Positions 3,314 through 61,361 of a DNA stretch of 64,000 nucleotides are shown here, one piece after another. The first letter of the stretch is position 1, and the number at the start of each line of letters is the position of its first letter. The notes under the pieces were generated by a model. It was not told the DNA's origin, made no database searches, and saw only the letters and a list, made by a program, of their open reading frames with translations. Source of the DNA: Clostridium sp. DL-VIII (GTDB taxonomy: Bacteria; Bacillota; Clostridia; Clostridiales; Clostridiaceae); assembly GCF_000230835.1 (NCBI RefSeq), contig NZ_CM001240.1:4676779-4740778 (forward strand), written 5' to 3'. Made by a program: the position numbers and the translations under genes.

Positions 3314-3362
3314 ATAAAAAAATAACAAGGCAATATACCATTATATTTTCCATGTGCCTTAC
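3314..3362 (-). terminator. Intrinsic terminator of the cobalamin riboswitch
   Basis: On the minus strand AAGGCA and TGCCTT pair around a 22-base loop and are followed by a run of seven T (GTTATTTTTTT). It lies immediately after the riboswitch aptamer, so it is the likely expression platform: ligand binding should favour termination before cbiQ. Confidence 0.7.
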
Positions 3363-3363
3363 G

Positions 3364-3535
3364 GTGCCAAATATAGGCAGGTCTTCTGACTTAAGAATTA
3401 TCATTCGAATACGCCTTCCCTATTTCTAAGTGACATAATATGTATTCAAACTCCTCCAATACAGCTACGGGATAGTTTAGGATTCTCACCTAATTCCCTT
3501 TTAATCAACTAAAATTTATTTTAATCAAACCTATA
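3364..3535 (-). promoter_or_regulatory. Cobalamin (adenosylcobalamin-type) riboswitch
   Basis: Read on the minus strand the conserved cobalamin aptamer blocks occur in order: AAAAGGGAATTAGGTGAGAA, then TCCCGTAGCTGTA, then GGGAAGGC, then AAGTCAGAAGACCTGCCTAT. These match the family consensus (GGGAA..GGTG..AATCC, CCCGC/TAGCTGTA, GGGAAGGC, GCCAGGAGACCTGCC) with only minor changes. A terminator follows directly, and the first gene downstream is cbiQ, so the role is repression of cobalt import when B12 is sufficient. Confidence 0.95.
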
Positions 3536-3628
3536 TTTTCTTATTAAATTTTACTTTCTCAACTATGTTTTTATATTATATCATAAATTGTTTATGGTAA
3601 CCAATGAAAGTTTTTTATTATATAGATT

Positions 3629-58896: not shown

Positions 58897-60192
58897 TTAA
58901 ATTTCATCAATATTGATTATCTTTTCTTCTCCACTAGACATATCTTTAAGTTTCACTTGTCTATTTAAAACCTCCTCTTCTCCAACAAGCACTACATTTG
59001 CTATTTCTAATTTATTGGCATAGTTAAGTTTTTTCTTAAGCTTATCGTCTTCAAGATATATCTCTGCATATTTTTGTTTTTCCAATAATCTCTTATATAC
59101 CTCACCACAATATTCTAAGGTATTTCCAATTGGAATAATCAAATACTCTATTGATTTTTCCACTTTATAATTGTCAATAAACCCTATTTCCTTTAACACA
59201 AAAAATAACCTTGTGAGACCAATTGATATTCCAACTCCAGGCAGGATACTATCTGTGTAATTTTGAGCCAAGTTATCATATCTCCCCCCTGAACATATAG
59301 AGCCATAGTTTTCATTTCCTATTAAGAATGTCTCAAATACTGTTCCCGTATAATAATCAAGTCCTCTTATTATCTTTAAATTTATTACATGCTCCTTATC
59401 TTTTACTCCAAAAAGCTTTAGCATTTTTTCAACTGAAACAAGCTCCTCAATACCTTTTTCAAATTCCTCTGAATTTATATTTAATTTTTTTAGTTTTTCA
59501 ATTATTTCTTCATTACTTCCATTAATGTTGATGATCTTATTAACAGCATCGGCTTTTTCTTTTCCAACCAGTTCATCTAAAGATTGCTTAAATTCTTCAG
59601 CCCCTATTTTATCGTACTTATCAATTAATCTCATAACCTCAGTTGTATTTATTATTTCTAAACTCTTCAAAATCTCCGTTAATATTTTCCTATTATTTAT
59701 TTGGAATTTATAGTTCTTTAGACCAATAGCTTTAAATCCCTTTGATACCAAGCTTATTACTAAGGCATCGTTATTAATGCTAAGTTCATTTTTTCCTATA
59801 ATATCAATATCACACTGATAAAACTCTCTATATCTTCCCTTTTGATTTCTTTCTCCTCTAAAGACTTTTCCAACCTGATATCTTTTAAACGGAAATATAA
59901 GTTCATTAAAATGTTGAGCAGCAAATCTAGCAAAAGGCACTGTTAAATCAAATCTCAAAGATAAATCATTATTTCCTTTAGTAAATCTGTAAACCTGCTT
60001 TTCTGTTTCCCCTGCACTCTTAGCAAGCAACACCTCTGATTTTTCAATAATAGGTGTGTCCATTTCTAAAAATCCATTCTCCTCATATACTTTTGTTATT
60101 TTTCTTAATATATCCTTAAATATTTTTTGTTCCTTAGGCAATAGCTCCATAAACCCCGGTAATATACTTGGCTGTATTTTATTAATTTTCAT
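58897..60192 (-). CDS. hisS: Histidyl-tRNA synthetase, archaeal/eukaryote-like branch
   Basis: 431-residue class II synthetase. Motif 2 region LRFDLTVPFARFAAQH and FRGERNQKGRYREFYQCDIDIIG, HisA motif RGLDYYTGTVFE, motif 3 GGRYDNLAQNY and GVGISIGLTRLFF, then the C-terminal anticodon-binding domain (about residues 335-431). The LRFDLTVPFAR and YREFYQCDIDI forms are those of archaeal/eukaryal HisRS; the usual bacterial LRPEGTA is not present. It is preceded by a histidine leader peptide and terminator. Could be a second HisRS; paralogues are common in Clostridia. HisZ is unlikely because the anticodon-binding domain is present. Confidence 0.9.
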   Translation of the reverse strand: MKINKIQPSILPGFMELLPKEQKIFKDILRKITKVYEENGFLEMDTPIIEKSEVLLAKSAGETEKQVYRFTKGNNDLSLRFDLTVPFARFAAQHFNELIFPFKRYQVGKVFRGERNQKGRYREFYQCDIDIIGKNELSINNDALVISLVSKGFKAIGLKNYKFQINNRKILTEILKSLEIINTTEVMRLIDKYDKIGAEEFKQSLDELVGKEKADAVNKIININGSNEEIIEKLKKLNINSEEFEKGIEELVSVEKMLKLFGVKDKEHVINLKIIRGLDYYTGTVFETFLIGNENYGSICSGGRYDNLAQNYTDSILPGVGISIGLTRLFFVLKEIGFIDNYKVEKSIEYLIIPIGNTLEYCGEVYKRLLEKQKYAEIYLEDDKLKKKLNYANKLEIANVVLVGEEEVLNRQVKLKDMSSGEEKIINIDEI

Positions 60193-60246
60193 AATTCTAT
60201 TCTCCTCCTAACATTTATTTCACAAACTTATTTTTACTTTAATATA

Positions 60247-60282
60247 CAAAAAACCATGCAGGCGTATCCTCCTGCATGGTTC
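60247..60282 (-). terminator. Attenuator terminator of hisS
   Basis: On the minus strand AACCATGCAGG and CCTGCATGGTT form an 11-bp stem with 8-base loop followed by TTTTTTG, 55 bases before the hisS ATG. It follows the His leader peptide, so it must be bypassed for hisS transcription. Confidence 0.85.
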
Positions 60283-60307
60283 AATAAATTACTACTAACA
60301 TTTAATT

Positions 60308-60388
60308 CATCACCATCAGCAGATACAAGCCTATAATTTATAGACTTGAATCTGCTTTTAAACAGACCAAGTCTTACCGATGATGATG
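60308..60388 (-). promoter_or_regulatory. Alternative hairpins of the his leader
   Basis: His codons CATCATCATC (60388-60379) can pair with GATGGTGATG (60317-60308), with one G-U. Nested inside is a strong stem GCAGAT..CAAG..CTATAA / TTATAG..CTTG..ATCTGC (60318-60358). The segment CTGATGGT can instead pair with ACCATGCAG of the terminator (one bulge), a possible antiterminator. Confidence 0.6.
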
Positions 60389-60424
60389 TATAAAATTTAT
60401 TAATTTCATATTAAATGCTTTCAT
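60374..60424 (-). CDS. Histidine leader peptide of hisS
   Basis: Sixteen codons, MKAFNMKLINFIHHHR, then TAA. AGGAGG lies 7 bases before the ATG. Three consecutive His codons near the end and a terminator between it and hisS are the pattern of amino acid attenuation, as in the enteric his operon. A ribosome waiting for charged tRNA-His would stop at HHH. Confidence 0.8.
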   Translation of the reverse strand: MKAFNMKLINFIHHHR

Positions 60425-60635
60425 AACTTTTCCTCCTGAGATTTAATTGTTATTATTATATATTATAAAAAATCCTTTTTCAATTATTATTTTAAGATTC
60501 TAATATAAATTATTTTTGGATTTTTTATATGTTGCAATTGTTTTTCTACATTTTCCATCTGGATATTTATTTAGCAGATAGACATCCTAACTGTAATTTT
60601 ATTATTGAAACATATATAACATAAATGTTTTATAT

Positions 60636-61361
60636 TCACTCTTTTATATGAAAATATAATTCTGGCATATTCTCATTAATAGTAGAAAATTCAAATCCTC
60701 GCGATTTATAATACTTTATTATTTTAGGAAGAGCCTTATATGTATTCTCATTTGCATCCGTGCAATGCATAAGAAGTATTATAGTTTGTAATTTTTCGCT
60801 TCCCTTTTTAACTTTTCTATATATCTTATTAGGTGATAGTTTTGGGTTTACCCCATCTGTCGCATCTAAATTCCAATCATATACCTTAAAATTATTATCA
60901 TGTAATCTTTTTAAAAAACTTTTATTAAGATGCTTTGCACTGCCGCCAGGAAACCTAAGTATATTGGGTGAAATACCAATAACTCTGTTTATCTCGTTAC
61001 GGCATTGAATCATTTCTTTTATAAATGTATCTTCATTGCCATAAATCTCTTTATAATCATGAGTATAACTATGAAGCCCTATATTATTTCCTTCATTATA
61101 AATTCTTTTTACCATCTCTTCATTGCATTTAATCTGATTGCCTATTAGAAAAAATGTTGCATTAACCTTATACTTTTTTAATACATCGAGAATTTCATTT
61201 GTTACTATAGGACTAGGTCCATCATCAAAGGTTAAATAAACTTTTTTCCCGCCTACTTCTTTAGATTTTGCAGAAACACTACCTATATTTTGATTGAATA
61301 TAAAAATAATAAGAAATATACTTATAACAATAAATAAAATATGCTTTAATTTATTCTTCAC
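60636..61361 (-). CDS. Polysaccharide deacetylase (NodB domain)
   Basis: 241 residues. N-terminal membrane anchor or signal (HILFIVISIFLIIFIF), then NodB homology: LTFDDGPSP (catalytic and metal Asp), HSYTHDY (metal His), LRFPGGS and a late LLMHCTDANE with His. Deacetylates peptidoglycan or a similar polymer at the surface. Single gene; 61362-61529 upstream holds nothing clear. Confidence 0.9.
   Translation of the reverse strand: MKNKLKHILFIVISIFLIIFIFNQNIGSVSAKSKEVGGKKVYLTFDDGPSPIVTNEILDVLKKYKVNATFFLIGNQIKCNEEMVKRIYNEGNNIGLHSYTHDYKEIYGNEDTFIKEMIQCRNEINRVIGISPNILRFPGGSAKHLNKSFLKRLHDNNFKVYDWNLDATDGVNPKLSPNKIYRKVKKGSEKLQTIILLMHCTDANENTYKALPKIIKYYKSRGFEFSTINENMPELYFHIKE

Follow-up and report, generated by a model that had tools for sequence, protein, structure and literature searches.

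A predicted ribosome-read histidine attenuator ahead of a second histidyl-tRNA synthetase gene in Clostridium

How might the gene for a second histidyl-tRNA synthetase (HisRS) be controlled in a Clostridium that also encodes a housekeeping HisRS? In this phylum, synthetase genes are expected to be controlled by T-box riboswitches (RF00230), which also sense tRNA charging, yet here a widespread second HisRS appears to be wired to a leader that is read by the ribosome. The gene in question, hisS2, lies on the minus strand of a 64-kb stretch of the Clostridium sp. DL-VIII genome (the window), and the DNA ahead of it was predicted to encode a histidine leader peptide followed by nested hairpins and a strong terminator. 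We conclude that this region is very probably a classical ribosome-mediated transcription attenuator, one that reads the supply of charged tRNA-His and controls a second HisRS made on demand. Its interest lies in its spread through clostridia, in the small histidine regulon that it may define, and in a trend that separates spare from sole synthetases.

The hisS2 locus and its genome

Read along the minus strand, between about 60483 and 58897, the features follow one another in the order promoter match, Shine-Dalgarno (SD) site, leader ORF, nested hairpins, terminator, second SD site and hisS2 (Table 1). An ORF with tandem His codons and a ribosome-binding site, predicted to be translated, is separated by an intrinsic terminator (60282-60251) from a structural gene, for histidine--tRNA ligase, that is tied to the amino acid of the leader. 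HHH is unique to this leader among the 86 SD-preceded mini-ORF starts (8-30 aa) of the window; 20 mononucleotide shuffles of the window gave 1246 starts of this kind, none with HHH. The predicted nested hairpins and strong terminator were recovered on RNA folding: positions 60240-60435 reach -68.2 kcal/mol against -35.9 in shuffles (z -8.9; 0 of 200 shuffles as good), and the terminator is the sole terminator-like site within 60200-60640, for which the shuffle mean is 0.0. In this fold CAUCAUCAUC pairs with GAUGGUGAUG, which is the pairing of His codons with a downstream segment that had been proposed. The promoter match is weak alone, with three promoter-like matches around the leader against 4.2 expected in shuffles.

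Table 1. Features of the hisS2 locus, in window positions
Feature	Position	Strand	Remarks
Promoter match, sigma-70-type, 5' of leader, TTGAAA-17-TATAAT	60455..60483	-	11/12 positions
SD site of leader ORF, CAGGAGGA (AGGAGG)	60431..60438	-	
Leader ORF, 16 codons, MKAFNMKLINFIHHHR + TAA	60374..60424	-	kept in relatives
Segment A, three tandem His codons, CAT CAT CAT	60380..60388 (60377-60388 with CGG)	-	pairs with 3' part of segment D; compensatory changes in relatives
Segment B, AGACTTGGTCTG	60363..60374	-	predicted partner C once His codons are covered
Segment C, GCAGATTCAAGTCTATA	60339..60355	-	predicted partner B (starved) or D (replete)
Segment D, TATAGGCTTGTATCTGCTGATGGTGATG	60308..60335	-	replete: predicted partners A and C; starved: predicted antiterminator with terminator arm E and the loop
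Intrinsic terminator	60251..60282	-	5' arm E 60271-60282, 3' arm F 60251-60262, then U-run; stem covaries in 36 relatives
SD site of hisS2	60201..60210	-	
hisS2, histidine--tRNA ligase, non-housekeeping branch, 431 aa	58897..60192	-	TIGR00442

The reported lack of T-box features held up: RF00230 has no match at the Rfam gathering score in the 64-kb window, and it is not among the 13 weak Rfam matches (E up to 10) within 60150-60600. The proteobacterial his operon leader (RF00514) works in the same way as the proposed attenuator, but its model does not match the window element, giving nothing at the gathering score in the window and nothing at E up to 10 in 60150-60600. A stray match of the trpB ncRNA motif RF04312 (34.7 bits, E 0.0034) fell under the 59-bit cut-off and was set aside. 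Elsewhere in the window, a cobalamin riboswitch (RF00174, 93.6 bits) lies at 3359-3549 on the minus strand.

The product of hisS2 passes the HisRS model TIGR00442 (376.5 bits, cut-off 286.75) and fails both the HisZ model TIGR00443 (205.3 bits, cut-off 271.65) and NF009085, the model of the PRK12420 histidine--tRNA ligase (276.1 bits, cut-off 540). It retains RGLDYYTG (from residue 276), in place of which the HisZ of the same genome has PGLNYYTG, as well as GGRYDNL (from residue 302), and an anticodon-binding domain is present. The enzyme had been called archaeal/eukaryote-like; the unusual branch stands, but the affinity is not solely archaeal or eukaryotic, since the best solved relative by E-value, ahead of the entries labelled 'cytoplasmic' HisRS, is 3net, which is listed just as histidyl-tRNA synthetase and which we take to be cyanobacterial. 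In sequence hisS2 is nearer to 3net, 6nhi, 'cytoplasmic' HisRS and 1wu7 (presumably archaeal) than to 1qe0 or 1kmm (presumably the S. aureus and E. coli enzymes). Its named relatives in a protein search, annotated 'histidine--tRNA ligase', include proteins from Clostridium sp. BL-8 (97%) and C. beijerinckii (81%).

A search of the genome (6.48 Mb, one contig) confirmed the suspected second hisS: besides hisS2 it holds two HisRS-like genes, housekeeping hisS and hisZ, so that the window enzyme is a second HisRS. The housekeeping gene (C1:2943079-2944329; TIGR00442, 514 bits) precedes aspS, and hisZ (TIGR00443, 322 bits) is followed by hisG, hisD and further ORFs, which we read as probably the remainder of the histidine pathway. 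T-boxes are common in this genome (29 matches, 20 of them over the gathering score) yet absent from the hisS2 leader, where the sensor would instead be the translating ribosome. None of them lies near hisS2, housekeeping hisS or the hisZ operon, and an Rfam scan of housekeeping hisS-aspS and of the hisZ operon found no T-box or other element over threshold. A covariance model of the hisS2 element (R1), built from 26 leaders, finds it once in this genome (E 0.01), with no match at housekeeping hisS-aspS or in the hisZ-hisG-hisD stretch (L006 and L007). A TrpR-family protein, of the family of HisR, is also encoded in the genome.

The predicted switch

We propose that segments A to F pair in two alternative ways. 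When His-tRNA is ample, the ribosome would move past the three His codons, A and C would sequester D in a long hairpin, leaving E and F to form the terminator, and transcription would end ahead of hisS2. A shortage of His-tRNA would stall the ribosome on the His codons, so that it covers A; B would then pair with C, the freed D would join E in an antiterminator, and the polymerase would continue into hisS2. The outcome would be a second HisRS on demand beside the housekeeping enzyme. We infer that the leader is translated and stalls ribosomes, that transcription terminates in the cell, and that the enzyme serves as a spare. The second HisRS had been suggested to be His-sensing; the attenuator is indeed of the histidine type, although its signal would formally be charged tRNA-His and not free histidine.

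The switch was calculated with minimum-energy and partition-function models without co-transcriptional kinetics. In the minimum-energy fold of the window transcript up to the terminator loop, with no ribosome, D is held by the His codons and segment C. Masking 9-18 nt from the first His codon in a transcript ending in the terminator loop exchanges A:D and C:D for a B:C hairpin, shortened at the 18-nt mask, and a D:E antiterminator. The full transcript, including the 3' arm, has the terminator in its fold in every masked state, so the switch requires that the antiterminator form before the 3' arm is made; timing matters likewise in known attenuators. As an attenuator would demand, masking the His codons flips the predicted fold, and the exclusive structures are kept in relatives.

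Over 48 leaders of hisS2 loci (described below), the mean upstream pairing of the terminator 5' arm is 0.33 with no ribosome; it rises to 0.58 with the ribosome at the first His codon and 0.60 at the second, and is 0.46 or 0.40 once the ribosome is placed on the stop codon. Masking raised this pairing by 0.24 on average, as against -0.02 in shuffles, and by more than 0.3 in 19 of the 48 (the terminator of L110 is misplaced in both figures). The behaviour is uneven: in L118, L123 and L128 the predicted arm pairing is the same at all ribosome positions, several more leaders barely shift, and between the His stall and the stop codon the pairing falls by more than 0.2 in just 15 of the 48 and rises by more than 0.2 in one. 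For 36 of the 48 leaders, aligned after the 12 less alike were omitted, RNAalifold replaces A:D and C:D by B:C and D:E under the mask and restores C:D when the mask passes the stop codon, a state in which the base of the terminator arm is still bound by three pairs. A mutually exclusive antiterminator chosen by ribosome position is thus found by calculation, though not in every relative.

In the same 36 leaders, 98.0% of the 1257 cells of the replete structure are paired and nine pairs carry double changes; double changes fill 52 cells, compared with 13.7 in shuffles (0 of 500 as many) and no more than 12 when partners are slid. Like the other shuffle comparisons, this excess is inflated by the relatedness of the sequences. 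The strongest covarying pairs join alignment columns 46 and 47 to segment D, with double changes in 16 and 8 sequences. Depending on the sequence, these columns correspond either to the final His codon or to the one directly after the His run, which means that leader codons and their partner in D changed together. The antiterminator is paired in 96.5% of 930 cells, as against 35-49% with slid partners. Its double changes fall in three pairs (0.9 in shuffles, reached by 19 of 500) and six cells (1.0 in shuffles, 0 of 500), figures exceeded by the slide -1 control with four pairs and 11 cells. The antiterminator pairing is therefore well kept, while its covariation is weak and by itself unconvincing. 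Calculation shows the parts of the element and that they are conserved, covariation in the replete structure, and a switch once segment A is masked.

Distribution of the leader and the spare-enzyme trend

The enzyme is widespread, with hisS2 present in 36 of 68 genus genomes (E 1e-80), 93 of 206 family genomes and 75 of 391 genomes of a class sample (both E 1e-60). We scanned 104 loci, namely the window locus and L037-L139, which include 28 loci from the class search. A distinct SD-preceded leader ORF holding HHH or HHC precedes 48 of them, and a terminator-like hairpin lies between leader and gene in all 48 (energies -9.7 to -25.9); the original prediction had named this comparison of leaders and terminators among clostridia as a check. 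The leaders end in HHHR, HHHQ, HHHH, HHHC, HHHY, HHHS, HHHT and similar, those of L073, L118 and L120 running a few residues past HHHR. Their N-termini vary, with length differences of whole codons, and little of the peptide is conserved outside the His run, in which codons differ as CAT or CAC alone except for HHCH in L064. HYH replaces HHH in five further loci (L053, L105, L129, L131 and L136; e.g. MINISFNSQVKLHYHR). Such a leader was found at only 9 of 80 loci taken from genome contigs, so distant hisS2 genes are mostly without one.

Several minor observations belong here. Three loci of uncultured Clostridia (L224, L262, L266) have HHH leaders before hisS2 with a common tail, HHHIYSMSA or HHHNYSMSA. 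At L115, L119, L121, L126, L132 and L134 a leader ORF was not found, and a terminator-like hairpin is kept, immediately ahead of hisS2, close 3' of a box that looks by eye like TATAAT. A T-box lies 5' of two distant hisS2 orthologues (L074:1181-1405 and L205:1216-1448); by our own reading of the alignment, the specifier triplet of both is AAC (Asn) and not His. In 15 scanned loci of distant relatives, the tRNA genes seen beside hisS2 are for Lys, Thr, Gly and Cys and none for His; they were treated as chance neighbours.

Model R1 matches in 35 of 67 genus genomes (E 0.01) and in 54 of 206 family genomes, at 58 places (E 1e-4). At 49 of the 58 a same-strand hisS2 match, in two cases an interrupted copy, follows within 500 bases; this figure is partly circular because 26 such leaders built the model. 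The remaining nine (L299-L303, L305, L307-L309) lie elsewhere. At L300:968-3412 (genome G014, contig C10) a second full-strength copy, with the leader MKAFNFVKENLIHHHT, stands before genes for a family-3 solute-binding protein, a permease and an ATPase. The permease passes TIGR01726, and among solved structures the best relatives of the binding protein are by name largely amino-acid binders; the models leave the substrate of the transporter unsettled. At L307:790-990 (genome G103, contig C14; 42.8 bits, E 1.6e-5) an HHHR leader, MINIVVMKSKVEFHHHR, and a terminator in the same layout are followed by genes for a HisZ-like protein (218 bits, under the cut-off of 271.65) and by hisG, hisD and hisC, all three over their model cut-offs; the hisS2 of that genome is without a leader. 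An element before this transporter and these his genes fits a histidine signal. Among the other places are relics: L299 and L302 have the element ahead of truncated hisS2 pieces, the piece at L301 lies at a contig end, and at L303 and L305 little of the element beyond its terminator is left. In the weak partial matches at L308 and L309 an SD-preceded HHH leader was not found.

A housekeeping hisS is found in 155 of the 206 family genomes (E 1e-60), and its presence can be set against that of the leader at 91 hisS2 loci in 90 family genomes (G146 has two), partial, interrupted and PRK12420-type copies being excluded. Where the genome has a housekeeping hisS, a leader precedes 44 of 48 hisS2 loci (40 with HHH or HHC, four with HYH); where it has no match, a leader precedes 10 of 43 (eight HHH, one HYH and one doubtful, L088), and, several genomes being incomplete drafts, some of these absences may be gaps. 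In the genus alone, the leader is present at 30 of 30 loci with the housekeeping gene and at one of six without, that one being HYH. The association is strong with phylogeny ignored (Fisher p 1.3e-11). On the best hisS2 tree the leader needs 10 changes and the housekeeping gene eight, and of seven independent pairs 4.1 on average point in the same direction and 0 in the opposite one (sign test, median p 0.125), so that after phylogeny the association is a trend and not significant. There are exceptions both ways: an HHH leader where no housekeeping hisS was found in G145, G146, G153-G155, G160 and G161, and a housekeeping hisS but no leader in G072, G074, G083 and G087. The direction of the trend is the one expected if attenuation suits a spare enzyme and not a sole one.

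It is an even call whether these patterns amount to a dedicated histidine attenuator regulon in Clostridiaceae, in which mainly a spare HisRS stays off while His-tRNA is sufficient, genomes with a housekeeping hisS retain the switch, those with hisS2 as sole HisRS tend to lose it, and the element has moved to histidine biosynthesis genes and an amino-acid transporter. If this is true, the state of the leader is a genomic marker that tells an inducible spare synthetase from a sole essential one. The element can be located with the covariance model; it connects hisS2 to histidine biosynthesis genes and an amino-acid transporter, and may flag genomes in which a synthetase is inducible rather than essential. 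Through close relatives, the question of why a second, amino-acid-controlled synthetase is kept becomes testable.

Alternative readings and known attenuators

Could the hairpins be a tRNA- or ligand-binding riboswitch, T-box-like, with the HHH frame incidental? The many T-boxes of this genome and those upstream of the orthologues L074 and L205 would speak for it, but no T-box matches at the window leader and the specifier of those two is AAC, not a His codon. Moreover, HHH survives synonymous changes while the remaining peptide varies, and the best covarying columns map to the final His codon or to its neighbour just after the run; we consider such a riboswitch highly improbable. These codons also bear on the notion that the short ORF encodes a functional His-rich peptide, for example a metal-binding one, and that the terminator just ends upstream transcripts. 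The SD site and start codon are good and His runs can bind metal; against this, little is conserved besides the His run, pairing and covariation tie the leader codons to segment D, and 49 of the 58 family places of the element precede a hisS2 match, while elsewhere it stands before his genes and an amino-acid transporter. A functional peptide is accordingly barely conceivable.

A further doubt accepts the attenuator and concerns the enzyme, which might charge something else or be a HisZ-like regulator, given that housekeeping hisS and hisZ are already in the genome. We consider this very unlikely, because hisS2 passes the HisRS model and fails that of HisZ, keeps RGLDYYTG and an anticodon-binding domain, and at 43 of the 91 family loci sits in a genome without a housekeeping hisS match at E 1e-60. 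Ribosome-mediated attenuation of a second HisRS thus remains our preferred reading.

Leader-peptide attenuation is itself known; what is new is its Clostridium hisS2 members and the spare/sole trend. The element is of a known kind because histidine leader peptides before the HisRS paralogue hisS* and before hisZ of bacilli were reported in 2010 (Naville & Gautheret 2010, PMC2965389). As described there, the bacillus leaders likewise combine a run of His codons in a short ORF with a premature terminator, ahead of a HisRS paralogue; the same leader type stands before hisZ in bacilli and, in Clostridiaceae, before hisS2 and the hisZ-like gene of L307. PMC4833913 cites a separate 2010 survey for hisZ of C. 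difficile and of species of the B. cereus group. Histidine attenuators of his operons have been described in the B. cereus group, in Peptostreptococcaceae and Lutispora, and in Erysipelotrichales (Ashniev et al. 2022, PMC9413887), a paper whose main text also describes the mechanism of the proteobacterial his leader. According to that text these systems, too, comprise a leader with 3-5 His codons, a terminator and an antiterminator, in Firmicutes. They differ in controlling the his operon and not hisS2 ('hisS' occurs 0 times in the main text), and the hisZ-hisG-hisD stretch of the present genome has no match of the hisS2 element model. In a search of main texts, covering few subscription journals, we met no previous account of the Clostridium hisS2 leader.

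The enzymes concerned are probably also distinct. We take the bacillus hisS* to be of the PRK12420 subfamily, from which the window enzyme differs by scoring 276 against a cut-off of 540. In Clostridiaceae, HHHH leaders (MFINYCLIKKLHHHHRKHL) stand upstream of the PRK12420-type HisRS genes L152-L154, and model R1 matches these leaders weakly (L153, 22.7 bits, E 0.009; L152, 18.8 bits, E 0.07; L154, 13.6 bits, E 0.86). Eight further loci from a PRK12420 search of the phylum (L280-L287) comprise five without an HHH leader, one that could not be placed, and two with one, L283 and L287. Together with L152-L154, these two indicate that histidine leaders recur before non-housekeeping HisRS genes of another subfamily.
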